Positions 1 through 26,400 of a DNA stretch of 64,000 nt are shown in pieces. A program made the position numbers and the translations under genes. Origin of the DNA: Mya arenaria. Its lineage: Eukaryota > Mollusca > Bivalvia > Myida > Myidae. The stretch spans positions 35,084,598-35,148,597 of the forward strand of contig NC_069138.1 of NCBI RefSeq assembly GCF_026914265.1, given 5' to 3'. Positions within the stretch are counted from its first letter, which is position 1, and every line of letters starts with the position of its first letter. The notes under the pieces were generated by a model. The model saw nothing but the letters and a program-made list of their open reading frames with translations, was not told the DNA's origin and made no database searches.

Positions 1-137
1 TTATTATGTAGATGAATAAATGGAATACAAAATTTCGTTGTCCTGTATCTTCCGTTAACACCAAACATTAAAACAATCGGTAACGTACCAACCGTCCTAC
101 AGGAATACGGAACCAATCAAAGTAGTTTTAATCAACG

Positions 138-2590
138 TTAAATAACAGCACTGAAGACCTCCAATCCAACCAGAAGTTTTCTGCTCACTGGACAGAATGA
201 TAAATTAAACGGAGCATTCTGGGACCCAAAGTCTTTTAAGGATAAGATTACTTTCAGATTCCTCTCCTTTCCGTTTATCAAAACTATATGACAACGACTG
301 CGAGCAATCACTAGTATTCGTTCCTTTCCGACGTTGATGGGTTGAGATGACAAGTTTAGAAACGGGTCTTTATATATGTTCAGCAAACTACCGTTGAAAT
401 TCAGGTGAAAGATACGCTTATTGCCAGACTCTATAACGTAAATTGAGGAAGAGCAAACGGTTATATACCGTACATCTGTAGGCTTTGTTGTAAATGATTG
501 CAACACTTCTCCAGCCATCGACATCCTTTCTACATACGAGTATGCTGGTGCTTTTTTGTAGTGTCGATAGGATACAAAAAGGCTTTTATCAGTGTAAGCT
601 AGTCCATAGCATGAACCGGATACTTCGAAATTTGTCCCAGCAATTACCGAATCGTTTTTAACGCTCACAAATTGTACTTTGCATTTAACTCGAAGAGCAA
701 CAGCTGCGTGGCCGCTGGGGAGGGCACACACCTGCCAAGGTTTTCCAAGTAATTTAATGTGTGACAAAACGTTGTTGTCGTTGATATCTACCAGTTTAAG
801 ACATTTATTAGAAGCGTCGGCCAAAAGACATTTTCCTGGTTCCACAAGAGCGGAACTTGTTATTTCGGGTCCATCTTTGTCTTCTGTGCATGAAATGTCC
901 AGCTCGGCATCTTTTGTCCATTCCACAGTGGATAGATCGATGTCTGTCTCTGATGTTATTCCTGAAATGAAAGAAGCGTAGACTATTTAAGTAAAAGTAA
1001 GAAAATATACACGAGTAAATAAAATTGAAAGGTCGTTATATAGTTATATGCTTTGATACAGAAATTTAATCAGCATTCGCCGAACGACCCCATTTGACAG
1101 AGATCGACTAATACGTATTGAAACACTATTACATATTATTGCCCTATGGCTTGCGTTTTATAAGAATTGTTTCGTATTAGACATATTTAAAATGCAGATG
1201 TCTAATGATACTTTTCAGATACGTGACGTCGACCGCGAGAATGAGTCCTGCAGCGGTAGAAAGTTCATTTGTGCAAACTTACTGTGTCTCATAAGCAGAC
1301 AATAAGTACAGTAAAACCCCGTTGGCTCAAACTCCCAGGGACCGGCGAAAATACCTCGAGCGTCGTAAATTTTGAGCCAAGCGAGAATGCTTACATTCAG
1401 TAAAAAGAAATCGCTCCTTTACATCCAGTTCGAGCCAACGAGAGATTCGAGCCAAACGATTTCGAGCCAACCGGGGTTCGAGCCAACGGGGTTCGACTGT
1501 ACTATTTGGATTACCAGTATTTAAAAGTTATCTCTTATTCGAATTGTATACATTTTTTAATATTATAATCCAATCGCTTGTTTAAATTCAGTTTTTGATA
1601 ATTATGTGAATGCCAACTCGTGACTCATTTTCGCAGACGACGTCACAATTATTAATTAAATGCAGATTTGATACTTCTAAGATCTTAACCTTCATTGGAG
1701 AAATCGACCCGTCCGAAAAAGTCTGAAGAGTTGATCAGAGCTTCCGTTTGTATGTCTTTTAGGAATGTGCAACGAACAGACGTGTCCAAAATGATCTCTG
1801 CGTTGATCTTATTGATTTCTTCTTGCAGCTTCACAAGTTGCTTCTTGGCCATTTTCGCACAAATAAAATGCTGGTGTAACTGTTTTTCTGTCGTCTGCAT
1901 GCCTGTATTCGTTTCTGATAGAGTCTGTTTTAAGCCTTTTATTCCATCTCTCAATTTTGAAAGTATCTCTTTTTGTTTGATCTCGTTTTCTTTCATACTT
2001 TTCAGCAACATATTTTCTCTTGTATCCAGAACAAGATTTATGTGTGCCCTAAATGTCCTCAGTTTCTGTATTTCTTCTTTTGTGTTTTCTGATACGAACA
2101 CTTCGGAATCGTTTACTTCGTTGTTTAAAGCGGAAATCACAGTTTCCATGTGTACAATGTTTTCGTTTAGAGTCTTATACTCCAAGGACTCTTTGTATTG
2201 TTTTGCTGTCTCTGACAAATACTCAACCTTACAAGTTCTGTGGTGAAACACAACGCAGTCTGAGCATCCGAGGTCATCATGGGTTGGACAATAAAACTTT
2301 ATCATTTCACTAGTGTGTTCATGACAAGGTTCGGTAGGCAGAAAATCAGCCTTGTCTTTGTTCGTATAAAAAGAAGGCATTTTATCTTTTGTAAGGAATA
2401 CATGATTTCTTGACATGGCGAACCTCTTGTGGGCAGATATACAAGGATCACACATAAACTCCTTGCAAATTTTGCAGAAACCATTGGCGCTGATCTCCCT
2501 CCCGTCTTTCAGGCACGGCTGACAATGTAAAACGAACTCTGTTGAGGCATTCTCATTGTCATTGTCTGACTTTCGTCCACCAACTTCCAT
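138..2590 (-). CDS. TRIM-like protein A: two B-boxes, coiled coil, NHL-like propeller (no RING)
   Basis: Two exons join as complement(138..961, 1690..2590), giving 574 residues. Exon 1 shows B-box 1 (C23, C26, C39, C42, C47, C50, H54, H63), B-box 2 (C89, H92, C101, H104, C109, C112, H116/H117) and a long charged coiled coil at about 125-275. Exon 2 encodes a propeller at about 302-574 with an NHL-like motif near 475-497 (GNKRIFHLNFNGSLL). The donor GAAG|GTTAAG and acceptor TTTCAG|GAATAAC join in phase 1 to make a glycine codon. The start is well supported: just upstream is an acceptor (TTTTTACAG) followed by an in-frame TAA two codons before the ATG, so a 5' UTR exon probably precedes. The domain order resembles TRIM2/3/71-type proteins, but without RING a ubiquitin-ligase role is unproven. 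Cytoplasmic scaffold or innate immune recognition is inference. Confidence 0.87.
962..1689 (-). other. Intron of gene A, containing a pogo-like MITE
   Basis: This 728-bp phase-1 intron separates the B-box/coiled-coil exon from the propeller exon. The equivalent introns are 703 bp in B, 727 in C, 671 in E and 660 in F, but only 261 bp in the pseudogene D. Copies A and C are about 97% identical here, much closer than their adjoining exon 2 sequences. A MITE occupies 1309-1499. I see no other coding signal. Confidence 0.8.
1309..1499. mobile_element. pogo/Tigger-like MITE in intron of gene A
   Basis: The ends are inverted copies (CAGTAAAACCCCGTTGGCTC and its complement, reading GAGCCAACGGGGTTCGACTG) and are flanked by TA on both sides. 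The interior repeats the decamer TTCGAGCCAA several times near the right end. TA target duplication and a CAGT-type terminus are usual for the pogo/Tigger branch of Tc1/mariner. No transposase is present. The insertion is shared by introns A, B, C, E and F, so it predates the array. Confidence 0.75.
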
Positions 2591-2599
2591 GATTTACCT

Positions 2600-4243
2600 G
2601 TAAAAATCGTTTCCGTTGATTACACACAGGTGACTGTAGGAACAGGCCAAAAAGGCATACATTTAACAATGAGGATAGGGATCAAAGTCATTCAAAGTAT
2701 TCTGAACGATAAATATCAGTGCCACAATGAAGATTCACACATATTTTATGTATACATATATCGTCATAAGTAATTGTTTAAGTTACAGTTCATTATATTA
2801 TCTCTAAAGGACAGACGGAACATTAATACTATCATATTACACCATAGGGTTCATTTCAATCACGCACACAAAACGCGCCAGGGGAAGTAAGCAAATTGAA
2901 TGATCCTACTTCACAAAGAGAATCAATACCAGTGTTCATGCATGAGGTATTTCAAAAAAGATATTTAGTTTAATGGTATGATCAAATCAAGTTGTCTTTA
3001 ATGCTTTATTGTGTTTACATCAACTAGAACTCCATGAATCGGATTCATTGCTTATTGAGAGCGCCGTTCTGCTGAAGGTCACCATGACATCAACAACAAC
3101 TGCTCCATTCGCACCACCTTTTTTCTGGGTGCGGAACATGTCTGTACGGTAGCGTTGTATGTGTCGTTTCTTAGCAGATTCGAGCACTCAATACACTCTA
3201 GGTGCGTGATATTGAAATGGATTCCCATTTTAATGATGAGCCTTAAAGTGTATAATAAACTGAAACTTAGACTTCAGCAATATCAAGCAGGAAGTAAATT
3301 TGTTTACCTTTTTTTCAATCTGCAAATATATCACTTATATCAGATAGCTCACTAGTACACTTCCACTCAGTTTACAAATGTATACACATTTTTCATGTAA
3401 TAAACATTATTATGTATTATTTTAAGTTGTAATTTTGGTTTAAACAAATGGAAACTACGCTCATAGACACGACAAAACAAACAGACGTCACGTGTTCGTA
3501 CTATGAACGATTTCATAGGGCGATATAAACATCATTGCTATCGTAGCTACTCGGTAATTTCCGGGGTTGGCAACTCCGACTCTACATTCGGAGCATCTCG
3601 GCCTTTTTTACGAAAACAACCTCAGATGTATGCCGGTACATCAGTAGAAGTAGTTCGTAAAATTTTGAATTATATTATTAATAAATTGTAGTGTTTTAGG
3701 TTGTTTTTGTAGATCTAAGTTTAAATTGATTGCCAGTGAAGTGTATTATTGCAAACAAAATTAAGATTCACAAGAGTTGAGTCATTAAGTTTAACTGCTA
3801 GATTGAAATGACTTAGCGATCTAGCGATGCCCCCCCCCCCCCCCCCCCACCGGAAATAAGGAAAAAACATTCCAAGTTTACTTTGGAGTCAAAGTCAATA
3901 TCGGAGAAAATAGTAATAAAATACGCGCAAATTTCACCATTATGGATAAAAAAGGTTTAAATTGTCTGGGGTGAGTACCTCCAAGTCACCCTACAAACGT
4001 TCAAAACTATTTCAATTTAGGTTGAGGGAGAGGCGAATGTCCAAAGGTGTGCCCGTAAATATAGCCCCCTCTTATGCCAATTCCTGGACCCGCTCCAGAC
4101 AATGACCGTTTTTATTTCTATTAAAAAACCCTTTTTATTCAAGTAGTAATAGTGTCAAGTGCAACGGCTTACTCTGACATTCAGGCTATTACTTCATAAA
4201 GTCATAAATATTTTTCATTGGGACTATATTGTCCAATTGTTAA
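2600..4243. other. 5' flank of gene A: first intron and candidate promoter
   Basis: This stretch lies between the acceptor before the start codon and the TTAA MITE. No protein-coding exon is visible. It holds a block near 2840-2910 conserved in front of A, C, F and E (46220-46300), a candidate regulatory cluster at 3484-3565, one arm of a foldback MITE (about 3585-3650), and a C-run at about 3831-3848. The 5' UTR exon must lie here or further right, but I could not place its donor with confidence. Confidence 0.5.
3484..3565. promoter_or_regulatory. Conserved candidate promoter: CRE/E-box, TATA-like and kappaB-like motifs
   Basis: The segment contains GACGTCACGTG (a CRE half plus E-box), TATAAA at 3534-3539 on the plus strand, and GTAGCTACTCGGTAATTTCC, whose complement GGAAATTACC is close to a kappaB site. 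The same order recurs about 0.9 kb upstream of exon 1 in C (about 19041-19122) and F (about 54715-54800). It recurs about 5.7 kb upstream in E (about 46882-46965), where the satellite and LINE intervene, and in weaker form in B (about 11565-11657). The TATA-like box points away from gene A, so this may be a divergent or bidirectional promoter. Function is inference. Confidence 0.35.
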
Positions 4244-4247
4244 TTAA

Positions 4248-4731
4248 AGGGACTGTGTCACAGATTGGCACCAGTTTTTTTCTGTAACGAATCTCAGGAC
4301 AATTATCTAATAGAATGTGTTACGCTTTGTTATCATAATTGTAAAAAAGTACCAAAATGTAAAACAAAAAATGGTGTCGGAGACCGGGTTCGAACCCGCG
4401 TCGCCAAAATTGTAGTTACGCTTCTTACTCACTGCGCTACATAGGCTTATTCTAATCAGGTGACATAATTAAGCTAATAAACCTACCTCGGTAATATCAC
4501 GTGATAACACCGACTAGCCAATCACGCATAAGGAATGAATTCTACCAGGTAGACATACTCAATGGAAATTTAATGGAAAAATACGAAATAACTGCTAAAC
4601 TTATATAAATTGTAAACTATGTGGTACTTAGTTAGTAAGTTTCAATACATTGTTCACGATGCCAAGTTTATGTCAGTTTTCGACAATTTTCTCTGTTATC
4701 CCGCTTTTTTATCATACGTGAGACAGCCCCT
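4248..4731. mobile_element. TTAA-flanked MITE with tRNA-like core (unit A)
   Basis: The 484-bp element starts AGGGACTGTGTCAC and ends with the inverted partner GTGAGACAGCCCCT, flanked on both sides by TTAA. The related sites at 27320-27335 and 48315-48330 carry a single TTAA and no insert, which defines the target duplication. On the minus strand the interior has a tRNA-like A box (TAGCGCAGTGAGTAAG) and a B box (GGGTTCGAACCC) about 45 bp apart. There is no transposase gene. TTAA duplication is the piggyBac habit, but the termini do not start CCC, so the family assignment is tentative. Confidence 0.8.
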
Positions 4732-4735
4732 TTAA

Positions 4736-5740
4736 TACTTAAAGAAAATTAATAATCACCAAATGAATCAAGTTTGATTGTTGTTTTATTGGATAGGTAA
4801 ATGTAATAACCAAAAATAAATCAGCTCAGCTGTTGTTGATTTTCTAAAGTCTGAAGATGGTGTTAGTACACAAATATACATTTTTGAGACAAAGCACTTT
4901 CACCGTGGCTACGCAGGAACCAGGTCTGTGATATAATACAATGTAACTTTATACAACCTAATGTGTGCATACGCTGGTGGTGTTCGTGATCCTCCGCTGC
5001 TAAATCAAGGTTTTTTAAACTGTTGTACGGATTTTGGACGAGGCACTTCATCGAGGCTACGAAATTGTAGTACAATATACAAGCAGCTACATCAATGTAC
5101 CAAGTTTATAGAACGTCTATACTGTCTGATACATTCAATTTTCAATATATACCCATTATGTTATAGTGAGATGACGTGAAGTAAATTAAAGAGTGATTAA
5201 GAATGGGCGAACTGAGCGTAGCGTACGAGCCCTTCTTAATCGTTAAGATTATACTTCAGGTCATATAACTGACTAAGAATACAACCTCGTTGGCTGATAC
5301 ATTGTCAACGCAAAATCTCACACAGGAAAGGTGTATCGGATGAATGGCAGAAGGCGGACCTTTAAAAACCCGGGAAAGTTGAAAATCTTAATGATTTAGT
5401 CTAGTTCTTAACGATTGCTTATCTGCAATTTCATTGGCTGACAATGTTGGCTGTATTCTAAATTCAGGTATAACTTCTGTATTTTCAAATTCGATTTTCT
5501 CGATTATTGTTCAAGAAAAATAGTTTTAATTTAACACACTATTGTTTGGCAACATTGGCTAAACAAAAACTATAAACTCACTCAACTGTGGCGATCGGGT
5601 CAGTTTTACGCGTGGTGCAGGAAAGATCTCCCAATTTTGCACGAGGAAAAGTAGGTGAGCAAACATATCGAATTTTGTTCTCATTTAAGTTTTCTATCGT
5701 AAAAATATAGAATCATTTATGTGTTCGAATAAATAATCAA
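4736..5740. other. Noncoding flank with a conserved hairpin
   Basis: No gene is seen. At 5195-5245 an imperfect palindrome has arms reading GATTAAGAATGGGC and GCCCTTCTTAATC around a GC-rich loop. The same hairpin occurs at about 20750, 27786, 48772 and 56445, one per flank. The rest is AT-rich sequence shared with the other units. Confidence 0.5.
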
Positions 5741-5744
5741 GAGC

Positions 5745-6075
5745 GAGAAAAGTATGGTGGTGATTTGGTGATGGTGAGGACCGGAATGTCATTACACCTA
5801 GCCCCACTTGTTCAAGAGAACTTTAACGCCGCTAGATATCAACATGATATTTTGGTACCAGTTGTTATTTCGCACCTACGAGGCAGTGGATGTGGCATGG
5901 TAATGCTGCACGAGGGCACCGGTCCAAACAACGCGTGCGACACAGGCGTTACTAGAGCAGTAGATCGTCCGGCGGCAGCCTTTCCCTTCCAAGCCGCCAA
6001 ATCTCAACGTTATTGAGCATGTGCGAGACGAGCCAGACAGACGACTAAGGAGGCGACCCGAATCCTCTCTGTTTT
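5745..6075 (+). pseudogene. Tc1-like transposase fossil (C-terminal part), unit A
   Basis: Plus-strand translation resembles the catalytic C-terminal half of Tc1/mariner transposases: a GGGSVMV-like start (clearest in unit C), a segment like NLNAARYQHDIL, a first-strand PHLRG-like stretch, then DLNVIEH-like and EPDRRLRRRP residues around the last catalytic acidic position. The reading frame is broken by shifts near residue 83 and several substitutions remove key acidic residues. Related fossils lie in four other units, so the insertion is old and passively copied. Confidence 0.7.
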
Positions 6076-6284
6076 TTGCTCATCGGTGAAATGCACCGTC
6101 TGTTTGACGACGTCGTTATCAGACGTTTACATGACGTAAACATATTGTCATTTTTGCAAACTAATTTAGATTTATTTTTTGAACATGCAGTGTATCAGTT
6201 TTGGATTCACTATAGCACATGTAGCAGTAATGATTACCTTACATGTTTTAAAACATACACTTAGATTGGTTATTTCATATCAAG

Positions 6285-6394
6285 TTTATTGCCAGAAAAC
6301 GTAACATATGACATGTGGTCGGCGGGTTGGAGTGGTCACGTGGACAGGCTGAACCAGACGGTGATGAACTCGGCCTCCGATATCTTATGGTCCA
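6285..6394 (-). CDS. Orphan EF-hand terminal exon (unit A)
   Basis: The acceptor TTTACCCACAG lies at 6395-6405. It is followed by 59 coding bases (6336-6394) that complete an EF-hand loop and end in TGA, then by AATAAA at 6285-6290. Reading in the phase of the EF-hand gene at the right end gives VDHKISEAEFITVWFSLST. Compared with the native exon (59225-59283), one loop residue is D to H. No upstream EF-hand exon exists in this unit, so it is either a silent passenger or an alternative last exon reached by long splicing. It lies 2.3 kb downstream of gene B and 3.7 kb upstream of the start of gene A. Confidence 0.6.
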
Positions 6395-6399
6395 CTGTG

Positions 6400-7290
6400 G
6401 GTAAACATGGCACATGGATTATACAATATGTGCACATTTGGCACCGGCTTTGTCAGAGTCTAGGATCACAGTGTTTTCGATAATAACACCATTTGGGGCC
6501 TGAGTTGTTATAAGGTCAATTGTGAACGACAGCTATACTTGTACTTGGTGTCCCCTTCCATTCACGGTTTGATGCATAGAAGCCAGAACTGGTAACATTT
6601 TTTTCAGAAGTAAAGATACATTTTTACTGAACGGGCTCGAACACGTAGGCTCTTGGCTAAGAGGCGTACACATACACCACTTGACCACTTACACTCAAAA
6701 CTGTGTGTGTATGCTCCCCGAGGTTTCAGATTTAGAACGAAGAAAAAACCCACATCTGAACAATTTTTGTCACTCAATACTATGTACAAGTTTTGGGAAA
6801 GTGTTCAGGTTATAGGTAACCTAATGCAAATGATATTTTGAAATGGCTATATATGACGTCTGACCATAACTTTGAAGATGTGTGACTGACACACTGTATT
6901 TATGAGTATTTATGAAGCGGTCACAAAGTGGCCAACCCTTTGATACTTATGTGTGGCCTAGACCTTGAAGTGTCCGCTCGACAGGTCAGACCTTTTTGCT
7001 TAGTCAATATGAAATTCTTCAATCGGTTGAGGGGCAATAGAGCGGACATCAAACGGTTGGCGGATGGACGGTAATATGGACAAGGTGGTCCCTTTTGAGA
7101 AAATAAAATGCCACATAGTGCTTTATAAAGAAGCCATGAAAAGAGGGCACGAAATGATACCGAATGGACGGTCAAACAGTGGTCTCTTTGGGTATAATTG
7201 AAATATAACATGGTGGCTTATGAAGTTGCCATGTATAGAGGGGACATAAACTAGTTCTCAGAATCGTGCACTCAGTAAAACCACGGTCTT
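6400..7290. other. Noncoding spacer shared with EF-hand gene intron
   Basis: No gene is supported. The part from about 6880 to 7290 matches 22420-22850 and also 61040-61490, which lies in the last intron of the EF-hand gene. This spacer is therefore derived from that intron, upstream of the copied terminal exon. Confidence 0.6.
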
Positions 7291-7293
7291 TAA

Positions 7294-7479
7294 AGCTGCA
7301 CTCTCACAGATATACCATTTTTACAACTTTTTTATTTTTGTCTTGGAAAGAGCAAATTTTTGCGTAAATATCTTCAAACTAATGATATAAGATTGCTGAC
7401 AAATAATCAGTAATAATTAGTTCCAAGACAAAAAATAAAAAAAAAGTTGTCAAAACGTTCAATCTGTGAGAGTGCAGCT
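7294..7479. mobile_element. TTAA-flanked MITE, AGCTGCACTCTCACAG type (unit A, internally deleted)
   Basis: The terminal inverted repeats AGCTGCACTCTCACAGAT and ATCTGTGAGAGTGCAGCT are flanked by TTAA on both sides. The paralogous site at 61490-61496 has one TTAA and no insert. The copy in unit C is 351 bp. This one lacks its central 165 bp, with TAGTT microhomology at the deletion ends. Confidence 0.82.
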
Positions 7480-7483
7480 TTAA

Positions 7484-8650
7484 AGATAAGCCCTCACAGA
7501 GTTCATGTTTGCTATAATTGATATCAAAACGTGTTCTAAATGAGTTATTTTATCGAAGCCCCAAACCTTCTCTTCCGGCAAGATGAAATCGTTTTGCTAT
7601 ATTTTTAAATAAGTTAGAACAAAAGGACTCTTATTTGAAGTTCTGATGACTACTTCGTATTGTAACAAGGAGTTTGCGTATATAACAAGCGATCATAAAT
7701 TTTCACATAAATTGGCTATTTTCAAGAAAAGAAATAAAAAAAGTTGTCAAAGCGTTCAATCTGTGAGAATGCAGCTTTTCTAACGGCTTTGAACGCTTCG
7801 TTGTTGTGTGTTGCATGATTGGTTGATTAACATTATCACGTGATGTTATCAATGTATTGAAAATGCCAATTTGCTCTAAAACTTTAACCGGACGCTGACG
7901 CTGACGCTGACACCAGGTCGAGTAGTATAACCCCCATTATACTTCAAATAGTCGAGGTAAATAAATGTTCGAGCACTTGTTTATGTTTGAAATGATTGTG
8001 TACAAAAGGAGATGTTCCGGACCATTTAGCTTCAAGAAAACGTTTGGAAAAGGGATAGCCAAAACGTAACAAATGGTAAGTAATGTTCATTTTGTTATGT
8101 AGTTATATTTTGTACAATATTCTCCGTGTTACAAGTGAGATACTCAATTGATTAAAGGGAAGTAATAGCAATTGTTTTAAAAAGTAGTGTTTGAAGATGT
8201 TATTTTCGCTTCTAAGCTTGCAGTGAAACTTCCACTGTTTATGTCCACTAATAAAGCACCTTATTTCACAGAAAAACATGAACGAAATAATAATCTACTA
8301 AGAGTCTAGATAGTATACACTACGCTAAATTATATAGTTTCCTTTAGTACATATGACCACACACTATAAGATGTTCCTTTTCATCTTTACGTAGATTTTC
8401 TGATCATGCACAAGATGTCCTTTTCCCAGTGATCGGTGTTCTTGTGTACACTATGATACTCCCGCCTCCAGAGTTTGATTATACTGTTATATTGGTAGAC
8501 ATACAGTTGACTTGGCGCGTTCTTGTTGCACATAGGTAGATGAAAAAATGGAATACAAAATTTCGTTGTATTGTTTCTTACATATACACCAACCATTAAA
8601 ACAATCGGTAGCGTACCAACCATCATACAGTAATACGGAGTAGGTTTTAA
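7484..8650. other. 3' flank of gene B
   Basis: No gene is seen. It contains a solo right end of the AGCTGCA MITE family at about 7730-7785, a CTGACG triplet-like run at 7891-7912 that opens a dispersed repeat (GACACCAGGTCGAGTAGTAT), and at about 8067-8082 a plus-strand ATG followed by the strong donor GTAAGT, preserved in four units. Confidence 0.5.
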
Positions 8651-8656
8651 TAAACG

Positions 8657-11072
8657 TTATACAACAGCACTGAAGACCTCCAATCCAACCAGAAGTTTTC
8701 TGCTCACTGGACAGAATGATAAATTAAACGGAGCATTCTGGGACCCAAAATCTTTTAACGATAAGATAACTTTCAGGTTCCTCTCCTTTCCGTTTATCAA
8801 AACTATATGACGAGAACTGCGAGCAAACACTAGTATTCGTTCCTTCCCGACCTTGGTGGATTCAGATGACAAGTTTAGCAACGGGTCTTCATATGTGTTC
8901 AGTAAACTTCCGTTGAAATCAACTTGAAAGACACGACTACTGCCAGACTCAATAACGTAAATTGAGGAAGAGCTAACGGTTATATATCGTGCAGCTCTAG
9001 TCTGCATTGAAAATGATTGCAACACATCTCCAGCCATCGATAATCTTTCTACATACGAGTATCCTGGTGCTTTGTCGTGGTGTTCGTAGAATACAAAAAG
9101 GCTTTTATCAGTGTATGCTAGTCCATAGCATGAACCTGATACGACGATATTTATCCCAGCAATTACTGATTCATTTTTAACGCTTACCAATTGTACTCTG
9201 CATGCATTTGGAAGAGCAACAGCTGCGTGGCCGCTAGGGAGAGCACACATCTGCCAAGGGCGTCCAATCAGTTCAATGCGTGACAAGACCTTGTTGACAT
9301 TAATATCTACAAGCTTAACACATTTATTATTATTGTCGGCCATAAGACATTTTCCTGGTTCCACAAGAGCGGAACTTGTTATTTCGGGTCCATGTTTGTC
9401 TTCTGTGCATGAAATGTCCAGCTCGGGATCTTTTGTCCATTCCACAGTAGATAGATCTATGTCTGTCTCTGATGTAATTCCTGCAATGAAAGAAGTGTAG
9501 ACAATTCAAGAAGAAAAAGTAAGAACAATTCACGAGTAAATGAAATTGAAAGGTCGTTATATAGTTAGAGGCTTTCATACAGAAATTCAATCAGCATTCG
9601 CCGAACGACCGAAATAGAGATCGACTAGTGTGTATTGAAACACTATTACATATTATTGTCCCAGCTCTGCGTTTTATAAGAATTGTTTCGTTTTAGATAT
9701 ATTTGAAATGCAGATGTCTAATAATACTTTTTCAGATACGTGACGTCGACCGTGAAAATGAGTCCTGCAGCGGTAGCAGGCAAATTTTTGCAAACTATCG
9801 TGTCTCATAAGCAGGCAATCAGTACTGTCAACCCCCATTTGCTCGAACTCCCAGGGACCGGCGAAAATACCTCGAGAGTCGGGAATTCCGAGCCATACCG
9901 GAATGCTTACATTCATTATAAAGAAATCGGTGCCTTACATCCAATTTTAGCCAAAGAGGAATTCGAGCCTATCGAGTTCCAGCTAACGGAGTTTGACTGT
10001 ACTATTTGGATTATAAGTATTTGAAAGTTATCTCTAATTCGAATTTTATTTATTGTTTCATGTTATAATCAAATCGCTTGTTAAATTCAGTTTTTGATAA
10101 TTATATGAATGCCACTACATGACTCATTTTCGCAGACGACGTCACAATTATTAATTTTCTATTGATACTTCTCAGATTTAAACCTTCATTGGAAAAGTCG
10201 ACACGTCCTAAGATGTCTGAAGAGTTGATCAGAGCTTCAGTGTGTTTGTCTGTCAAAAATGTGCAACGAACAGACGTGTCCAAAATGATCTCTGCGTTGA
10301 TCTTATTGATTTCTCCTTGCAGCTTCACAAGTTGCTTCTTGGCCATTTTCGCATGAATGAAGTGCTGGTGTAACTGTTTTTCTGTCGTTTGCATGTCTGT
10401 TGTCGTTTCTGCTAGAGTCTGTTTTAAGCCTTTTATCCCAACTCTCAATTTTGAAAGTATCTCTTTTTGTTTGATCTCGTTTTCTTTCATACTTTTCAGC
10501 AACACATTTTCCTTTGTATCCAGAACAAGATTCATATGTGTCCTAAATTTCCTCAGATTCTGTATTTCTTCTTTTGTGTTTTCTGATATGAACGTCTCGG
10601 AATCGTTTACTTCATTGTTCAAAGCGGAAAGTACAGTTTCCATGTGTGCAATGTTTTTGTTTAGTGTTTTATACTCCTCGGACTCTTTGTATTGTTTTGC
10701 TGTCTCTGACAAATATTCAACCTTACAATTTCGGTGGTGTAACACAACGCAGTCTGGGCATCCAAGGTCATCATGGGTTGGACAATAAAATTTTATCATT
10801 TCACTACTGTGTTCATGACACGGTTCGGTAGGCAGAAAATCAGCTTTGTTTTTGTTCATATAAAAAGAAGGCATTTTATCTTTCGTTAGGAAAACATGAT
10901 TTCTTGAAATGGCGAACCTCTTGTGGGCAGATATACAAAGATCACACATAAACTCCTTGCAAATTTTGCAGTAACCATTGGCGCTGATCTCCCTCCCGTC
11001 TTTCAGGCACGGCTGACAATGTAAAACAAACTCCGTTGAGGCATTGTCTAATTTTCGTCCAGCAACCTCCAT
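8657..11072 (-). CDS. TRIM-like protein B: two B-boxes, coiled coil, NHL-like propeller
   Basis: Exons join as complement(8657..9480, 10184..11072) for 570 residues. The donor GAAG|GTTTAA and acceptor ATTGCAG|GAATTAC keep phase 1. It is four residues shorter at the N-terminus than A (DNASTEF rather than SDNDNENASTEF). All B-box cysteines and histidines are present. Unlike A, C, E and F, there is no in-frame stop between the upstream acceptor (AATTTTACAG) and the ATG, and the frame stays open for 15 codons into intron sequence. I still choose the ATG at 11072 because it aligns with the other copies. Its 5' flank is the most diverged of the intact set and lacks the TTAA MITE and the orphan EF-hand exon. 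Confidence 0.85.
9826..10005. mobile_element. pogo-like MITE in intron of gene B
   Basis: The ends read CAGTCAACCCCCATTTGCTC at the left and GCTAACGGAGTTTGACTG at the right, a degraded version of the termini in intron A, with TA flanks. It is an orthologous passenger of the insertion seen in the other introns. Confidence 0.65.
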
Positions 11073-11119
11073 TATCCACCTGTAAAATTTGTTTACGTTG
11101 ATAATATGCACAGGCACGC

Positions 11120-14100
11120 CAATCAGTCATACAGTTTAACAACAGGTGTTCGACACATAGCCTGGACACTAAAATAAGGCCTTTCAATCCTTTGATACTG
11201 TTTAGATAGTATTATTATTTCTATTTAAACAGAGACTAGCACTGAAAAGGAATATTTTAGTGTCAGATCTATTTGACGTACACCGTCCGGTCGTGAGTTT
11301 ATCTTTGAGAAATTAACTGGGTTACTTGCTATCTTGTCTGTAGTTTAGATTTTAGAAATATTAAGCGATTTAGCAGGAAGTAAAATTGATTACCTTTTTC
11401 AATCTGCAAATATACCAATTCTTTCAGATAACTCACTAACTACTAATACATTTCCACGTATACAAACGATTCATATAATAAACATTTCCAATTATATAGT
11501 GTTGTATTTAAAGCTATAACACTTGGAGACTACAAAACAAGGAGACGCCGAAACATGCAAACGTCACATGTTCGTACTATGAACGATTTTATTGGTCGAT
11601 AATATGACATTCATACATCGTTTATTTTGTAGCTACTCGGCAATTTCCGGTCTCTGATTAGATAAAGGGAAATATTACATTAAGGGAGGTTAAACTTTAT
11701 ATTGCAATGACTGTGTTCAAGTCTAATGAAATGTTTTAATTGTAAACTGCAGCCGCTGGCTCACTCTTTTACTTATGAATTCACACGATGTTTGTATTTG
11801 GCAGACTCGAGCGTACAAAGGAGATACAGGAATACAATAACAAATGTCAAAATGATAAAAAAGTATTCATGAGCGCTCATTATTTTTACTAGAACATAAA
11901 TCGGCTCATCTGTCCAAGTCCATCGTATATTTAAAGATGGTGCTAGTTCATTATTGTAGTTATTGAGACATTGAAATTTTGACCGAGGCTTTCGATGTAC
12001 CGGGTCTGTGATCTAATTCAATTTATGCAACTGACTATTGTCTGGATACGATGGTGCTGTTTATGATCATCTGATGCTAGTAGTAGGCGCTTCTACAACA
12101 TTGTACATGTTTAAGACAAGACATGTTTCTCCAAGGCTATGCATGTACCAGGTTATCATTGTAGTACAATATTCAAGGAACTGCATAGTGGTAACTGCTC
12201 TTCCGAAGTTCTTTCATTAACATAAGGAAAGGCAATGATAAATTCATTAAAGTTGCACGTTTTATTTTGTGACCCGGGATCCACCACGAGGAATAGATTC
12301 AGCCATTTCAACTTTGAATATCCCATTACAAAGACTGACCACAGGAGTGACATATTCACAACCTTTCATAATCTGCCGGGGCAATTCATAAACATGTAAA
12401 TGCGTTCCGTTTACCAAATAAGTATATGCTACAAAAACCGTGCATTATTCTTCTATGTTAATCTGGAACCAGTACATGAACTTTTTATCGATAATCGCAC
12501 TCATTGATTGGTTATAGCTAGTAACGTTTCTATGTGATTTGTTTAAATTCATTAGAAAAAAATCTTATAAATATGAAATGGATGTTGCATTTGTTGCATT
12601 CTGATTTTGAAGTCTGCAAAACTTGAATAGTTTAGTATACATGTGTTAACTTACATTGCGACAAAAGAAGCACTGATTTGAAATACAGTGATTTACATTA
12701 CGAAAAGGGCTTACTTGTATAAATACATATAGTATTTATTATAGATACATATAGTATTTATTATATAAATATATATTTATTAACTTTAGTATAGATACAT
12801 ATAGTATTTATTATATAAATATATATCTATTGATTTTAGATCTCTACGATGATAATTTTGGTTTAAACCGTATTTAATGTATATAAGTACATTAGGCAAA
12901 GACAAAAAGTACATACATAATAAGTACGGGTTGAGCAAATAGCTAGAGCTAATATTGATACCTCTCTTATCTGTCATTTTATATAGTCAGCACCCAGCAG
13001 TGCATGATCATTTTGTGTATCATATTACAATGTGCATATTTTTGCAATATGCTACAATGCACACATGTTTTTTAGAAAATACTGCAAGATACTTGAATGC
13101 TCCGAAATGCTAGTCTTTGTTAAAGTATTTGTGCCACTAGGAGTAAAAACATGTGCTTTTAAGCATTACATTGTACGCATTGAATATAAACAGTATAGCA
13201 TACTGTTTGTTTACACAATTGTAATTACTCTTACCCCTGCCATTCCCTATCTTAAGTAAATACCTGAATCACTCAATAGATGAACCATCCACGAAGCGAT
13301 TTTTCATTTATTGATGAGTATGAAAAATAAAATAACATCAAAATATGTTTAGTTAACAAAGTAGTATCTTTAAAAACACAAGGAAGTCAGAGATTAAAGT
13401 GACACTGTTATTTAAAATCAATATATACACATGTATAACAACATAAATTTTGACTGATAAACCTTTAACATCTTACTAAATAATGCATTTATTGAAAATA
13501 TATTAACCGATAACACAATTGTAGCCGTCTTTTTAACAGCAGAAAGCGTAAAAATATTAAATGAATGGTGAATGCTAAAAGATTGACTGTGGTCAACTAT
13601 AGTCACATATGGTAGAAATACCGTGTTTTATGCTCATTTGTTTCAAATTTAACTCGGCATCCTTCATAAGAACCATCGTTTTCGACATTTATTCATCCTT
13701 TTTGGAATATTAAACAATAGTATTAATTGTTGTAAATCTTATTAGGGAATAAGTGTAGATCTTTAAAGGGATTCGCTAATGTTTTTTTTGTAAAAGGCAC
13801 GTTTTGTATGACGAAATAAAGTGTAGCAAATCATTATGAGTGTTAGTGTTAAAACTAAGCTCGAACCCTTCAGTAAATGTTAATATTTGCTCATTTATCA
13901 TCTTTGGAGACCACAATTTTCATTAGCAAACAGCTTTGAGCGATTCGTTGTTGCGTGTTCCGTGTTCCACGTGATAATATCAATGTATTGACGTCCATGT
14001 TCTTCGTATAAGTCTTAGTGGCCCAGTGGGTAAAAACGTCTGTTTTCTTTTTCTCTTGAATTTACCGGCATTGGTTTGCAAAACCAAAATACTTTTTATA

Positions 14101-14720
14101 CTACAATTGTACTTTTTTCTACAGGTTCGATATCATAAAGTAATGATAAAATTAGGTTTTTTTTTTTCAAATACCTTACCATGTATACTTTTTTGGTCCC
14201 AAACAGCCCCTTTCTGGAGTTATTTTCTCAAATAAATTTCAGGCATGTTCTGCATGGGCGCTCAAAAGCTTGTAATGATTAAGTAATACAAAGATAATAC
14301 ATATAGAAGATATTCGTTGATTTCAGTGTAAGATCGTCATTTATTTCATGAGTCTCATAAAAAAACACTTTTTCACGATTAGTGAATCCACGATTAATCA
14401 CGAGTCAAAATATTATACGATGTACACTGAAAAAAAAACAAATTTCTAGTTCCGTTCATGCTTATCAAGTTATGAGATAATATATTAGTTGCTAAATTTA
14501 TTTTTCAAAACGTCCCATTATGGCATACCTCTTTGCTACTCGTGGGACGCACCTCACGCGTAGTGCTACTTGTTGGACGCCCCTCACGCATAATGCTACT
14601 CATGGGACGCCCCTCACGCTTCAGATGAGATACTTTATTAACATTTTAATTTACCGATAAATTTTGGTTAACGCATTTATTTCTATAATATTGAAGTTAT
14701 AACTGAAAATGTCGGCTAGC
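11120..14720. other. Diverged 5' flank of gene B, no gene seen
   Basis: The part to about 12200 aligns weakly with the 5' flanks of A, C and F, including the kappaB-like block at about 11630-11657. At 12720-12840 an AT-rich motif (ATAGATACATATAGTATTTA) recurs three times. At 13660-13760 there is a block shared with 46120-46210. A TTTAAAGGG motif at about 13765 may be a degraded MITE end. I see no supported exon or RNA gene. Confidence 0.45.
14535..14624. repeat. Three tandem 30-bp repeats
   Basis: Three copies of a 30-bp unit start at 14535, 14565 and 14595 with the core GGACGCCCCTCACGC. They are GC-rich against an AT-rich background. No function is apparent. Confidence 0.85.
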
Positions 14721-14724
14721 CCTA

Positions 14725-15692
14725 AATCTTTAAATGGACACCGACGCTGACGCTGACACCAGGTCGAGTAGTATAACCCCCATTATTCAGGCTTCGAATA
14801 GTCGAGGTACAAAATTATGTTTAAGCACTTGTTTATGTTTGTTATGATTGTGTTCGAAAGCAGACGTTCCGGACCATTCAGCTTCAAGAAAACGTTGGAA
14901 AAGGGATAGCCAAAACGTAACAAATGGTAAGTAATGTTCATTTTATTATGTAGTTATAATTTTGTACAAATGTTCCGTGTTAAAAGTGAGAAACTCAGTT
15001 GATCAAAGGGAAGTAAAAGCAATTGTTTTAAAAAGTAGTAAATGAAGTTGTTATTTTCGCTTCTAAGCTTGCAGTGAAACTTCCACTGTTTATTTTAACT
15101 GATAAGACACCTTATTTCACAGAAAAACATGAACGAAATAATAATCTACTTAGAGTCTAGATAGTATACAGTGCGCTAAATTATATAGTTTCCTTTAGTA
15201 CATATGACCACACATATAAGACGTTTCTTTTCATCTTATTACAGATTTTATGATAATGCGTAAGATGTCCTTTTCCCGCATGATCGGTGTTCTGGTATTT
15301 AATGTATAGAGTAAGTAATATGATACTCTCGCCTCTAGAGTTTCATTACACTGTTATACTGCTAGGCATATACAGTTGTCTTGCTGCGTTCTTGGTGTAC
15401 ATAATTATGTAGATGAATCAATGGAATAAAAAATTTAGTTCGTGAAACGCCAAATATTAAAACACTCGGTAACGTACCAACCAGCCTACAGTGATACGGA
15501 ACCAATTATTAGTTCACGTTCCTTTCCATCTTAACGTAGGTTTAACGATGATGCGTTATTATGTAGATGAATAAATGGAATACAAAATTTCGTTGTACTG
15601 TATCTTCCGTTAACACCAAACATTAAAACAATCGGTAACGTACAAACCGTCCTACAGTCATACGGAACCAATCAAAGTAGTTTTAATCAACG
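14725..15692. other. 3' flank of gene C
   Basis: It opens with the same CTGACGCTGACACCAGG dispersed repeat seen before genes B and D, then the plus-strand ATG|GTAAGT block at about 14926. Part of the gene's 3' flank appears twice in tandem: about 15405-15530 and 15552-15670 share the run AATGGAATA and the ACCAACC..CCTACAGT block. No gene is seen. Confidence 0.5.
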
Positions 15693-18147
15693 TTAAATAA
15701 CAGCACTGAAGACATCCAATCCAACCAGAAGTTTTTTGCTCACTGGACAGAATGATAAATTGTACCCGTCATTCTGGAACCCAAGGTCTTTTAAAGATAA
15801 GATAACTTTCAGGTCCCTCTCCTTTCCGTTTATCAAAACTACATGACAATGACTGCGAGCAAACACTAGTATTCGTTCCTTTCCGATGTTGATGGACTCA
15901 TATGGCCAGTATAGTATCGGAGCGTCATATGTGTTCAGCAAACTTCCGTTGAAATCAAGTTGAATGATTCGTTTAACAGCAGAATCACCAGTCAAGTAAA
16001 TTGAAGAAGAGCTAATGGTTAGATAACGTGGAGATGAAGCATTTGTTGTCATCGATTGCAACACTTCTCCAGTCATCGATAGTCTTTCTACATACGAACA
16101 TGCTGGTGCATTTTTCTTATGTCTGTAGGATACAAAAAGGCTTTTATCAGTGTATGCTAGTCCATAGCATGAACCGGAAACGTCGAAATTTGTCCCAGCA
16201 ATTACTGAATCGTTCTTAACGCTCACAAATTGTACTTTGCATGCACTTGGAAGAGCAACAGCTGCGTGACCGCCAGGGAGGGCACACACCTGCCAAGGGT
16301 CTCCAATCAATTCACTACGTGACAAGACCTTGTTGACGTTGATATCTACAAGCTTAACACATTCATTCTCAATGTCGGCCAAAATACATTTTCCTGGTTC
16401 CACGAGAGCGGAACTTGTTATCAAGAATCGGTTTGTGTCTTCTGTGCAGGAAATGTCCAGATCGGCATCTTTTGTCCATTCCACAGTAGATAGATCGATG
16501 TCTGTCTCTGATGTTATTCCTGTAATAAAAGAAGCGTAGACAATTTAAGTAAAAGTAAGAACAAATACACGAGTAAATAAAATTGAAAGGTCGTTATAAA
16601 GTTATATGTTTTGATACAGAAATTTAATCAGCATTCGCCGAACACCCCATTTGACAGAGATCGACTAATGCGTATTGAAACACTATTACATATAATTGCC
16701 CTATGGCTTGCGTTTTATAAGAATTGTTTTGTATTAGACATATTTAAAATGCAGATGTCTAATGATACTTTTAAGATACGTGACGTCGACCGCGAGAATG
16801 AGTCCTGCAGCGGTAGAAAGTTCATTTGTGCAAACTTACTGTGTCTCATAAGCAGACAATAAGTACAGTCAAACCCCGTTTGTTCGAACTCCCAGGGACC
16901 GGCGAAAATACCTCGAGCGTCGTAAATTTTGAGCAAAGCTGGAATGCTTACATTCAGTAAAAAGAAATCGCTCCTTTACATCCAGTTCGAGCCAACGAGG
17001 AATTCGAGCCAAGTGAGTTCGAGCCAACCGGGGTTCGAGCCAACGGGGTTCGACTGTACTATTTGGATTACTAGTATTTAAAAGTTATCTCCTATTCGAA
17101 TTGTATACATTTTTTTATATTATAATCCAATCGCTTGTTTAAATTCAGTTTTTGATAATTATGTGAATGCCAACTCGTGACTCATTTTCGCAGACGACGT
17201 CACAATTATTAATTAAATGCAGATTTGATACTTCTAAGATCTAAACCTTCATTGGAGAAATCGACCCGTCCGAAAAAGTCTGAAGAGTTGATCAGAGCTT
17301 CCGTTTGTATGTCTTTTAGGAATGTGCAACGAACAGACGTGTCCAAAATTATCTCTGCGTTGATCTTATTGATTTCTCCTTGCAGCTTCACAAGTTGCTT
17401 CTTGGCCATTTTCGCACAAATAAAATGCTGGTGTAACTGTTTTTCTGCCGTATGCATGCCTGTTGTCGTTTCTGATAGAGTCTGTTTTAAGCCTTTTATT
17501 CCATCTCTCAATTTTGAAAGTATCTCTTTTTGTTTGATCTCGTTTTCTTTCATACTTTTCAGCAACATATTTTCTCGTGTATCCAGAACAAGATTGATGC
17601 GTGCCCTAAATGTCCTCAGTTTCTGTATTTCTTCTTTTGTGTTTTCTGATACGAACGCTTCGGAATCGTTTACTTCGTTGTTTAAAGCGGAAATCACAGT
17701 TTCCATGTGTACAATGTTTTCGTTTAGTGTTTCATACTCCTCGGACTCTTTGTATTGTTTTGCTGTCTCTGACAAATACTCAACCTTACAATTTCGGTGA
17801 TGTAACACAACGCAGTCTGAGCATCCAAGGTCATCATGGGTTGGACAATAAAACTTTATCATTTCACTAGTGTGTTCATGACAAGGTTCGGTAGGCAGAA
17901 AATCAGCCTTGTCTTTGTTCGTATAAAAAGAAGGCATTTTATCTTTTGTAAGGAATACGTGATTTCTTGACATGGCGAACCTCTTGTGGGCAGATATACA
18001 AGGATCACACATAAACTCCTTGCAAATTTTGCAGAAACCATTGGCGCTGATCTCCCTCTTGTCTTTCAGGCACGGCTGACAATGTAAAACGAACTCTGTT
18101 GAGGCATTCCCATTGTCATTGTCTGACTTTCGTCCACCATCTTCCAT
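15693..18147 (-). CDS. TRIM-like protein C: two B-boxes, coiled coil, NHL-like propeller
   Basis: Exons join as complement(15693..16519, 17247..18147) for 575 residues, with one extra residue in exon 2 (around GDSAVKRI). The donor GAAG|GTTTAG and acceptor ATTACAG|GAATAAC keep phase 1. An in-frame TAA follows the upstream acceptor and fixes the start. By hand count, exon 1 differs from A at about 13 of 301 residues, while exon 2 differs at about 67 of 262. Those changes lie in patches between conserved strands such as PWQVCAL and SCYGLAYTDKSLFVSY. All zinc ligands are kept. The contrast between exons suggests selection or conversion acting on the propeller. Confidence 0.87.
16868..17058. mobile_element. 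pogo-like MITE in intron of gene C
   Basis: Left end CAGTCAAACCCCGTTTGTTC and right end GAGCCAACGGGGTTCGACTG with TA flanks. It matches the intron A copy almost exactly. Confidence 0.75.
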
Positions 18148-18149
18148 GA

Positions 18150-19792: not shown

Positions 19793-19796
19793 TTAA

Positions 19797-20280
19797 AGGG
19801 ACTGTGTCACAGATTGGCACCAGTTTTTTTCTGTAACGAATCTCAGGACAATTATCTAATAGAATGTGTTACGCTTTGTTATCATAATTGTAAAAAAGTA
19901 CCAAAATGTAAAACAAAAAATGGTGTCGGAGACCGGGTTCGAACCCGCGTCGCCAAAATTGTAGTTTAGCTTCTTACTCACTGCGCTACATAGGCTTATT
20001 CTAATCAGGTGACATAATTAAGCTAATAAACCTACCTCGGTAATATCACGTGATAACACCGACTAGCCAATCACGCATAAGGAATGAATTCTACCAGGTA
20101 GACATACTCAATGGAAATTTAATGGAAAAATACGAAATAACTGCTAAACTTATATAAATTGTAAACTATGTGGTACTTAGTTAGTAAGTTTCAATACATT
20201 GTTCACGATGCCAAGTTTATGTCAGTTTTCGACAATTTTCTCTGTTATCCCGCTTTTTTATCATACGTGAGACAGCCCCT
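19797..20280. mobile_element. TTAA-flanked MITE with tRNA-like core (unit C)
   Basis: Same element, site and TTAA duplication as 4248-4731, carried along by the duplication. The tRNA-like A and B boxes are on the minus strand. Confidence 0.8.
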
Positions 20281-20284
20281 TTAA

Positions 20285-21285: not shown

Positions 21286-21289
21286 TAAT

Positions 21290-21947: not shown

Positions 21948-21949
21948 CT

Positions 21950-22850: not shown

Positions 22851-22856
22851 GCACTC

Positions 22857-24449: not shown

Positions 24450-26400
24450 TTAAATAACAGCACTGAATACCTCCAAACCAACCAGAAGTTTTCTGCTTAC
24501 TGGACAGAATGATAAATTGCACGGGGACCCAATGTCTTTTAACGATAAGATAACTTTCAGGTTCCTCTCCTTTCCGTTTATCAAAACTATATGACGAGGA
24601 CGGCGAGCAAACAGTAGGATTCGTTGCTTTCCGACGTTGATGGATTCATATGGCAATGCTAGTAACGGGTCCTTATATGTATTCAGCAAACTGTCGATGA
24701 AATCATGTTTAAAGATATGCATACCGCAAGAATCAGTAACGTAAATTGAGGAAGAGCTAATGGTTATATATTGTGCATATACAGCCTTTGTTTTAAATGA
24801 TTGCAACACTTCTCCATTCATCGTTAATCTTTCTACATACCAGTTTGCTTCTTCGTGGTGTTTGCAGAATACAAAAAGGGTTTTATCATTGTATGCTAGT
24901 CCATAGCATGAACTGGACACGTCGATATTTGTCCCAGCAACTACTGAATCGTTTTTAACAGTCATAAATTGTACTTTGCATGCATTTGGAAGAGCAACAG
25001 CTGCGTGGCCGCTAGGGAGGGCGCACACCTGCCAAGGGTCTCCAAGCAGTTCACTGCGTGACAAGACCTTGTTGACGTTAATATCTACAAGCTAACACAT
25101 TTATTGTTATTGTCGGCCAAGAGACATTTTCCTGGTTCCACAAGAGCGGAACTTGTTATCCAGGATTCGTATGCGTCTTCTGTGCAGGAAATGTCCAGCT
25201 CGGCATCTTTTGTCCATTCCACAGCAGATAGATCGATGTCTGTCTCTGATGTTATTCCTGTAATGAAAGCAGCGTAGACAATTTAAATAAAAGTAAGACA
25301 AATAAACGAGTAAATAAAATTGAGAGGTCGTTATATAGTTATAGGCTTTATTACAGAAATTCAATTAGCATTCGCCGAACGACCCCATGCGACCGAGGTC
25401 GACTAGTGCGTTTTGCAACAATAATAAATAGTATTGTCTGAGCTCTGCGTTTATAAGAATTGTTTCGTATCAGATATATTTAAATGCAGATTTCTATCTA
25501 TACTTCTAAAATCCAAACCTTCATTGGAGATGTCGACACGTCCTAAGATGTCTGAAGAGTGTGCTCGTCTGTCAAAAATGTGCAACGAACAGACGTGTCC
25601 AAAATGATATCTGCGTTGATCCTATTGATTTCTCCTTGCAGCTTCAAAAGCTGCTTCTTGGCCATTTTGCACGAATGAAGTGCTGGTGTTACTGTTTTTC
25701 TGTCGTTTGCATGTCTGTTGTCGTTTCTGCTAGAGTCTGTTTTAGGCCTGTTATCCAATCTCTCAACTTTGAAAGCATTTCGTTTTGTTTGATCTCATTT
25801 TCTTTCATACTTTTCAGCAACATATTTTCTCTTGTATCCTGAACAAGATTTATTTGTGGCCTTAAATTCCTCAGTTTCTGTGTTTCTTCTTGTGTGTTTT
25901 CTGATATGAACGCTTCGGAATCGTTTACTTCATTGTTCAAAGCGGAAAGCATAGTTTCCATGTGTGAAATGATTTCGTTTAGTGTTTTATACTCCTCGGA
26001 CTCTTTGTATTGTTTTGCTGTCTCTGACAAATACTCAACCTTACAATTTCGGTGGTGTAACACAACGCAGTCTGAGCATCCAAGGTCATCATGGGTTGAA
26101 CAATAAAACTTTATCATTTCACTAGCGTGTTCATTACACGGTTCGGTAGGCAGAAAATCAATTTTGTCTTTGCTCATAAAAAAAGAAGGCACTTTATCTT
26201 TCGTTAGGAAAACTTGATTTTTTTACATAGCGAACCCCTTGTGGGCAGATATACAAGGATCACACAAACTCCTTGCAAATTTTGCAGAAACCATTGGCGC
26301 TGATCTCTCGTCCGTCCTTCAGGCACGGCTGATAATGTAAAACAAACTCTGTTGAGGCATTCTCATGGGCATCGTCTGATTTTCGTCCACCAACCTCCAT
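24450..26400 (-). pseudogene. TRIM-like copy D, broken
   Basis: The exons correspond to 24450-25257 and 25519-26400 but do not encode a full protein. Relative to the intact copies, exon 1 has a TAA in place of the serine codon after AM (26225-26227), a 2-base loss near 26264, a one-base loss near 25671, and an 18-base loss near 25561. Exon 2 has a one-base loss near 25092 and small in-frame losses. The intron is cut to 261 bp and has lost the pogo-like MITE. The propeller from 25064 down to 24450 still reads openly for 204 residues. A host pseudogene is the clear call. It could still serve as a donor for gene conversion. Confidence 0.88.

Follow-up and report, generated by a model that had tools for sequence, protein, structure and literature searches.

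The 64,000-nucleotide stretch of the Mya arenaria genome analysed here (C17:35084598-35148597; hereafter the window, with positions counted from its start) carries six tandem two-exon gene copies, A to F, arranged head to tail and all on the minus strand. These copies probably belong to a large family of TRIM-like host genes without a RING, in which a conserved stem exon is followed by a separate exon for a probable six-bladed NHL-like propeller, and which would have been shaped by tandem amplification, exchange between copies and selection on the loops of a recognition face. Evidence for diversifying selection on the predicted b-c and d-a loops, which by propeller topology lie on one face, is strong in all four gene clusters tested. 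More tentatively, the family may form a germline repertoire of more than 100 genes that uses an NHL-like propeller, and not a B30.2, leucine-rich repeat or immunoglobulin domain, as its variable receptor head. A ring of top-loop residues would then be diversified by point selection and by reshuffling of a self-contained exon on a constant B-box stem, as an independently evolved invertebrate counterpart of TRIM5 and finTRIM on a scaffold regarded as conserved.

A phase-1 intron splits the two coding exons of each copy (GAAG/GT ... CAG/GAAT, with AAAG in F). Copies A, B, C, E and F are open through both exons and encode 570-575 residues; D is frameshifted in both. Exon 1 encodes two B-boxes, the first of them AnCHR-like, followed by a helical, coil-like region. 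Both PF00643 and PF22586 match exon 1 near or above cut-off, 16 of the 19 cysteine and histidine positions in residues 1-129 are invariant among nine copies, and profile comparison with the Protein Data Bank (PDB) matches TIF1-beta and MID1. The TIF1-beta match covers residues 13-207, and Pfam matches to helical families stay below cut-off. No RING appears in Pfam scans of exon 1 from five C17 copies (A, B, F, C and E) and one C8 gene, and the family is therefore best classed as TRIM-like rather than as full TRIM. The original prediction of a TRIM-like array stands as far as the B-boxes of the tandem copies are concerned, with the absence of a RING match as a correction. The ATG of 12 out of 16 C17 copies is preceded at 6 bases by an in-frame stop, located 3' of the predicted splice acceptor. 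In B, I, P and K the in-frame stop is found 30-57 bases 5' of the ATG, beyond the predicted acceptor, and these four copies may thus have an upstream coding exon.

Exon 2 probably encodes a six-bladed NHL-like propeller. When an exon-2 profile is compared with the PDB, the best matches are propellers, among them the NHL domains of Thin (E 0.011) and TRIM2 (E 0.063-0.071). Six blades were delimited from the register of strands in the alignments with Thin and TRIM2 and from a spacing of 42-47 residues, which in our reading holds for all five blade-to-blade intervals. In a four-stranded propeller meander one face carries the b-c and d-a loops and the opposite face the a-b and c-d turns. The predicted b-c and d-a loops are called top loops here and the a-b and c-d turns bottom loops; the loops are predictions and the face is assigned from the strand register. 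None of the five exon 2 copies scanned has a Pfam match above cut-off, and SPRY and PRY are absent from the matches of five exon-2 proteins at E up to 10 (with filters that drop most matches above 0.1).

Selection was analysed in four clusters on three chromosomes: C17, C8 at 41 Mb (C8a), C8 at 48 Mb (C8b) and C13. After removal of sequences with 97% protein identity or more to one already retained, 12 of 13, 12 of 13, 18 of 22 and 11 of 13 sequences remained, respectively; the 13 from C17 include neither H, I and J, which are near copies of C and B, nor the broken copies D and Q. Among these 13 sequences, 55 columns have a pairwise diversity of at least 0.5, and they comprise 38 of 74 top-loop positions, 3 of 38 bottom-loop positions and 14 of the remaining 161. 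The patchy changes noted in the original prediction coincide with predicted loops, and variable columns mostly avoid the strands, so that a spread through the propeller core, named beforehand as a contrary outcome, was not seen. The ratio of nonsynonymous to synonymous divergence (dN/dS) in 11 C17 copies is 1.52 in top loops, 0.32 in bottom loops, 0.52 in strands and 0.27 at the N-terminus. It is higher in top loops than in the rest of the exon in 54 of 55 C17 pairs and exceeds 1 there in 52 of 55 (median 1.53 versus 0.47), so that values well below 1 in the variable patches, raised beforehand as a contrary outcome, were not observed. Top-loop dN (0.365) is also greater than the intron divergence K of nine pairs of intact window copies other than A/C (0.101-0.165). 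In an independent test the loop labels were transferred unchanged to the other clusters and gave dN/dS values for C8a, C8b and C13 of 0.97, 1.15 and 2.05 in top loops, 0.32, 0.49 and 0.53 in bottom loops, and 0.48, 0.56 and 0.43 in strands. When the labels are rotated along the exon, 1 of 272 shifts (a shift by one) reaches the observed value in the first C17 analysis. In the analysis of four clusters the count is 0 of 272 for C17, 0 for C8a, 3 for C8b (shifts 1, 42 and 43, the latter two amounting to one blade) and 1 for C13 (shift 1).

Codon models point to the same loops. With M1a and M2a written for this analysis and scaled IQ-TREE branch lengths, twice the log-likelihood difference for exon 2 is 106 in C17, 96 in C8a, 229 in C8b and 176 in C13. 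Across the four clusters 70 sites have a posterior above 0.9, and 61 of these fall in top loops. Selected positions recur between clusters: 20 are shared by two or more (14.2 expected; reached by 19 of 5000 draws) and 11 by three or four (2.1 expected; reached by 0 of 5000), where the expectation comes from random draws within loops and within non-loops. Recurrent sites include 29, 32, 49/50, 73, 116, 132, 162, 179, 203, 220, 249 and 251. Of the 12 labelled top loops, 11 contain a site selected in one or more clusters, the exception being the short last loop (267-269). When thirds of exon 2 are given separate trees, 9 of 9 tests in C17, C13 and C8a are significant (p 0.00084 or less), and 58 of 68 sites lie in top loops. 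Conversely, exon 1 gives no signal (value 0.00 in nine copies, in a fit that returned a numerical warning), whereas exon 2 of eight of those copies gives 65. Because the selected positions repeat between clusters and the exon-1 control, itself recombining, is silent, recombination does not appear to lie behind the selected sites.

The near-identity of A and C in exon 1, intron and flanks beside a divergent exon 2, on which the original prediction was built, is borne out (2.8, 3.7 and 2-3% versus 15%). The two copies differ at 25 of 901 bases in exon 1 (97.2% identical; protein 96%), 27 of 727 in the intron (96.3% identical), 3 of 210 in the near 5' flank (2.3% for the 5' flank in a multi-copy comparison) and 4 of 139 in the 3' flank (2.9%). 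In exon 2 they differ at 123 of 822 bases (14.8%; 85.0% identical; protein 75%). The protein identities agree with the earlier counts of 13 of 301 differing residues in exon 1 and 67 of 262 in exon 2, and the earlier figure of about 18% base difference in exon 2 applies locally, the exon-wide value being 15%. The block at 1-7422, which includes A, is 96.1% identical overall to 15556-22977. Windows of 200 bases differ by 0-6.5% over 1001-7400 and by 11.5-22% in the four windows over 201-1000. The jump is confined to A 207-930, and the last 70 or so bases of exon 2 (138-206) are similar again. Synonymous divergence (dS) between A and C is 0.223 in exon 2 and 0.053 in exon 1, with an intron K of 0.038, and exon-2 dN/dS is 1.37 in top loops, 0.32 in the rest and 0.67 for the whole exon. 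If point selection since the duplication had produced the contrast, exon-2 dS would match that of the remainder, but it exceeds it and is of the size seen between old paralogues; the equal synonymous divergence named beforehand as a contrary outcome was therefore not found. The contrast thus reflects either an exchange of exon 2 or the sparing of this exon when the other parts were homogenised. Both processes offered by the original prediction hold, for different parts. Import (or sparing from homogenisation) explains the A/C contrast, with no donor found, and positive selection is family-wide, strong and located in loops of one predicted face, without being the source of the A/C contrast itself.

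Copies H and J, about 340-360 kb away, carry the exon 2 of C, and A differs from C, H and J by 14.8-14.9% in exon 2 and by 3.7% in the intron, which makes A the odd one among the four. The two-gene unit P+A recurs as B+C and as I+J. P and B, the partners of A and C within this unit, served as an age control; their exon 2 differs by only 2.6% and their intron by 1.3%, which marks the unit as young. The block 7320-22798 (B+C) is 99.4% identical over 15.5 kb to C17:35451192-35466656 (I+J), about 359 kb away, and represents either a very recent duplication or an unpurged haplotype. The most likely and simplest account of the A/C contrast is that most of exon 2 in A (or in the ancestor of C, H and J) was replaced by conversion from other copies, with donors of the A exon 2 that may have diverged since or may lie outside the assembly. 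No single donor is named: painting of the A exon 2 with a copying model gave many short segments of uneven quality.

Other copies also carry the marks of exchange. For instance, M and K are hybrids, with an A/C-like intron (4.2-4.6% different), B-like flanks (4.3-8.9%) and an exon 2 of their own. A and F differ by 1.7% in the near 5' flank (600 bases) and by 7.2% in exon 1, 13.0% in the intron and 14.2% in exon 2, and the exon 2 of F holds an L-like tract with 4 mismatches in 285 bases. The pairwise homoplasy test detects recombination in exon 2 (11 copies), exon 1 (10 copies) and the intron (8 copies), with 0 of 1000 permutations reaching the observed value in each. Sequence has thus moved between the tandemly amplified copies, which gave exon 1, the intron, exon 2 and the flanks separate histories. 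In the proposed working of the family, the variable top face would serve as a binding surface, and the constant stem would multimerise and couple binding to a common output. Such a repertoire may recognise changing non-self ligands (viral or microbial proteins or RNA), as the B30.2 domains of TRIM5 and finTRIMs do.

The A/C contrast could also have arisen in the opposite way, if A and C were old, conversion had equalised their flanks, exon 1 and intron, and selection had removed conversions of exon 2, leaving exon 2 as the old part. This is unlikely but deserves serious consideration, given that the A/C exon-2 dS of 0.223 lies within the range of the other nine intact window pairs (0.133-0.229), that a close donor for the A exon 2 was not found, and that the shared near 5' flank of A and F beside divergent gene bodies indicates that flanks can homogenise alone. 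However, it needs at least two tracts that end near both edges of exon 2, and P+A, B+C and I+J appear to be block-duplicated, which favours one later replacement of exon 2. Errors of assembly, in which uncollapsed haplotypes or chimaeric contigs produce the tandem pattern, are improbable as a general explanation. The near-identity of B+C and I+J would suit them, as would the high heterozygosity of bivalves, and the published clam assembly is described as phased (PMC10663159). Against this, the selection tests used sequences below 97% protein identity, the pattern repeats on three chromosomes, and C, H and J all contrast alike with A.

As to what the top face does, the copies may be regulators that contact RNA through the top face, like Brat, LIN-41 and Mei-P26, and that diverged for different cellular or viral RNAs; we regard this as rather unlikely. 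The predicted domain order of the family equals that of the RING-less Brat. NHL top surfaces are reported to bind RNA (PMC9070667, PMC5908797), and TRIM56, which has an NHL-like domain, is described as restricting some RNA viruses with the aid of RNA binding (PMC11768893). At the 20 recurrent sites, however, positive charge is not consistent: the net charge averages 0.0, 0.9, -0.2 and 1.4 in the four clusters and ranges from -5 to +4. This counts against a single conserved RNA-binding patch and favours varied partners. Relaxed constraint, by which exon 2 would drift in redundant tandem copies, is very improbable: broken copies do exist (D, exon 2 of Q, and exon 1 of K, L and M, the last with one stop), but C17 strands and bottom loops hold a dN/dS of 0.32-0.55 across analyses while top loops exceed 1, and 16 of the 18 modelled C17 copies keep an open frame in exon 2. 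We give equally little credence to the idea that loop codons are hypermutated in a targeted way, in germ line or soma, rather than selected. Some recent pairs differ chiefly at the ring, such as the close exon-2 copies L020 and L025 of C13, in which 13 of 20 changed codons lie in top loops, all 13 are replacements, and loop changes are often in adjacent codons. Synonymous differences per site in top loops and strands are, however, 0.209 and 0.145, 0.213 and 0.158, 0.191 and 0.161, and 0.081 and 0.071 in the four clusters, a rise of merely 1.1-1.4 times, and a raised mutation rate alone therefore does not account for the replacement excess. Relaxed constraint, hypermutation and haplotype duplication were set aside on this evidence.

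Several observations weigh against the reading of a propeller family diversified on its recognition face. The NHL-like fold predicted originally is probable from weak profile matches and blade periodicity, not from a structure: the Pfam NHL model PF01436 reaches 12.4 bits in one of five members, below its cut-off of 20, and the PDB matches to NHL domains are weak (E 0.011-0.071) and intermixed with the YncE propeller (0.016) and a shark antibody chain (0.044), the latter probably a chance match. The blade labels were drawn after the C17 variation had been seen, so that C17 is no independent test, and C8a top loops average 0.97 over pairs, not above 1. Recombination can inflate site tests, the thirds of exon 2 may still hide breakpoints, and 10 of the 68 sites in that analysis lie outside top loops. 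In recent pairs the replacement excess in top loops (17:3 versus 18:11) is alone not significant (p 0.11). The 3' flanks of P and B are unrelated (61.6%), which weakens the age control, and a close donor of the A exon 2 was not found in the genome, where the best other match has 80% protein identity. Finally, the recognition or immune role is one that we infer by analogy.

The family extends well beyond the window. One search each for exon 2 and exon 1 in the genome (1.216 Gb, 18 contigs) gives at least 141 exon-2 matches on C17, C8, C13, C14, C9, C12 and C10 and at least 131 exon-1 matches, with C6 and C1 besides the exon-2 contigs; these are counts of matches, not of genes. Twenty of the 141 exon-2 matches are on C17, and 49 of the other 121 were fetched, chosen by cluster and with rows containing internal stops skipped (L028, of C8c, is not counted). 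The C17 models omit the partial copy L017 at 35.51 Mb and an exon-1 fragment at 35.437 Mb; D and Q are the two modelled copies in which exon 2 is not open. Exon 1 stands beside exon 2 in 16 C17 copies; it is stop-free in 12 of them, interrupted by one stop in M and broken in frame in D, K and L. In one C8 gene, exon 1 is 38% identical to that of A and encodes the B-boxes seen there, and a stop codon immediately precedes its ATG. Searches with tblastn found no exon 1 in ten C8 and C13 loci spanning exon 2 and 1.5 kb on each side, a span that exon 1 can exceed, as in one C8 gene it begins about 2.2 kb before exon 2.

Table 1. Gene copies of the window and predicted top loops of copy A (residues are those of the exon-2 alignment)
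Feature	Position	Strand	Comment
Copy A gene	138-2590	-	
Copy A exon 1	1690..2590	-	B-box 1, B-box 2, coil-like stem; phase-1 donor GAAG/GT
Copy A intron	962..1689	-	96.3% identical to C
Copy A exon 2	138..961	-	probable NHL-like propeller; stop codon 138-140
Copy A block divergent from C	207..930	-	divergence rises to 11-22%; dense mismatches; 200-base windows
Copy B gene	8657-11072	-	
Copy B exon 1	10184..11072	-	in frame, 12 bases shorter than A
Copy B exon 2	8657..9480	-	
Copy C gene	15693-18147	-	
Copy C exon 1	17247..18147	-	
Copy C exon 2	15693..16519	-	one extra codon
Copy D gene remnant	24450-26400	-	
Copy D exon 1 remnant	25519..26400	-	frameshifted, pseudogene
Copy D exon 2 remnant	24450..25257	-	frameshifted, pseudogene
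Copy E gene	38886-41281	-	
Copy E exon 1	40381..41281	-	
Copy E exon 2	38886..39709	-	
Copy F gene	51444-53828	-	
Copy F exon 1	52928..53828	-	
Copy F exon 2	51444..52267	-	
Copy A d-a loop before blade 1	864..881	-	residues 27-32; selected sites 28-32
Copy A b-c loop, blade 1	804..815	-	residues 49-52; selected sites 49, 50
Copy A d-a loop, blades 1-2	738..749	-	residues 71-74; site 73 selected in 3 of 4 clusters
Copy A b-c loop, blade 2	681..692	-	residues 90-93; selected in C8a, C8b, C13, not in C17 whole-exon test
Copy A d-a loop, blades 2-3	612..629	-	residues 111-116; selected in C8b, C13, not in C17 whole-exon test
Copy A b-c loop, blade 3	537..566	-	residues 132-141; site 132 selected in 4 of 4 clusters
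Copy A d-a loop, blades 3-4	471..488	-	residues 158-163; site 162 selected in 3 of 4 clusters
Copy A b-c loop, blade 4	417..431	-	residues 177-181
Copy A d-a loop, blades 4-5	339..371	-	residues 197-207
Copy A b-c loop, blade 5	288..302	-	residues 220-224
Copy A d-a loop, blades 5-6	207..236	-	residues 242-251

Other elements lie within and between the copies. The intron of A contains an inverted-repeat-like element with TCGAACCCCGTTGGCTCGAA-like ends at about 1305-1500, perhaps a small DNA transposon. This element is shorter in B, E and F, and D, with a large deletion in its intron, lacks it. Between D and E, retroelement remains at 29529-33393 on the minus strand contain neighbouring open reading frames that match Phage_integrase (tyrosine recombinase type), RNase H, reverse transcriptase and a zinc knuckle, a combination that points to a DIRS-like element. 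Another fragment of a retroelement, between E and F, is an open reading frame at 43732-44268 on the minus strand that matches the reverse transcriptase family RVT_1 (E 1.4e-24). A 53-base tandem repeat of 13.6 copies (41549-42260) is located just upstream of copy E, and further tandem arrays occur at 28962-29395 (40-base unit) and 62692-63025 (111-base unit).

Brat of Drosophila contains B-box 1, B-box 2, a coiled coil and NHL without a RING, an order that the clam family would share with its two B-boxes, coil-like stem and probable NHL-like propeller. It is listed in brackets in subfamily C of one TRIM classification (PMC3503706). Brat is a single RNA-binding regulator, whereas the clam family is large and fast-changing. 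TRIM56, with two B-boxes, a coiled coil and an NHL-like C-terminal domain, resembles the predicted layout of the clam proteins, and it is described as antiviral (PMC11768893), but it is one gene with a RING, whereas the clam family is expanded and no RING was found in it. Human TRIM2, TRIM3, TRIM32 and TRIM71 are reported to share a six-bladed NHL fold, with paralogues differing mostly at blade-connecting loops and at the top opening (PMC9634614), and the clam copies resemble them in their probable fold and in the predicted place of their variation. The finTRIM, btr and trim35/hltr genes of fish and primate TRIM5alpha resemble the clam family in combining a conserved N-terminal module with C-terminal variable loops described as under positive selection, the fish genes also being multigene families (PMC3137616). 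The C-terminal domain of finTRIM and TRIM5alpha is B30.2/PRY-SPRY, whereas the clam genes have a probable NHL-like propeller, no RING found, and occur in a mollusc. One account of TRIM evolution describes the non-SPRY genes of group 1 as highly conserved and places rapid evolution in the SPRY genes of group 2, said there to be absent from invertebrates (PMC2533329); the clam family, an invertebrate NHL-like family, evolves fast. Among the matches listed in a search of open-access text, no title or abstract describes a rapidly evolving NHL-like TRIM family in molluscs, and some bivalve genome papers mention TRIM genes.

Fast, pathogen-style evolution of TRIM genes has so far been tied to SPRY domains and vertebrates, at least in the account cited (PMC2533329), and the same signature is now seen in a bivalve family with a probable NHL-like domain. 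The family may provide a direct test of the ways in which animals that lack antibodies generate large numbers of recognition specificities, and it offers a short list of positions at which ligand binding could be examined. Mya arenaria is reported to suffer from a transmissible cancer (PMC10663159), and candidate recognition genes in this clam would have an obvious experimental use.

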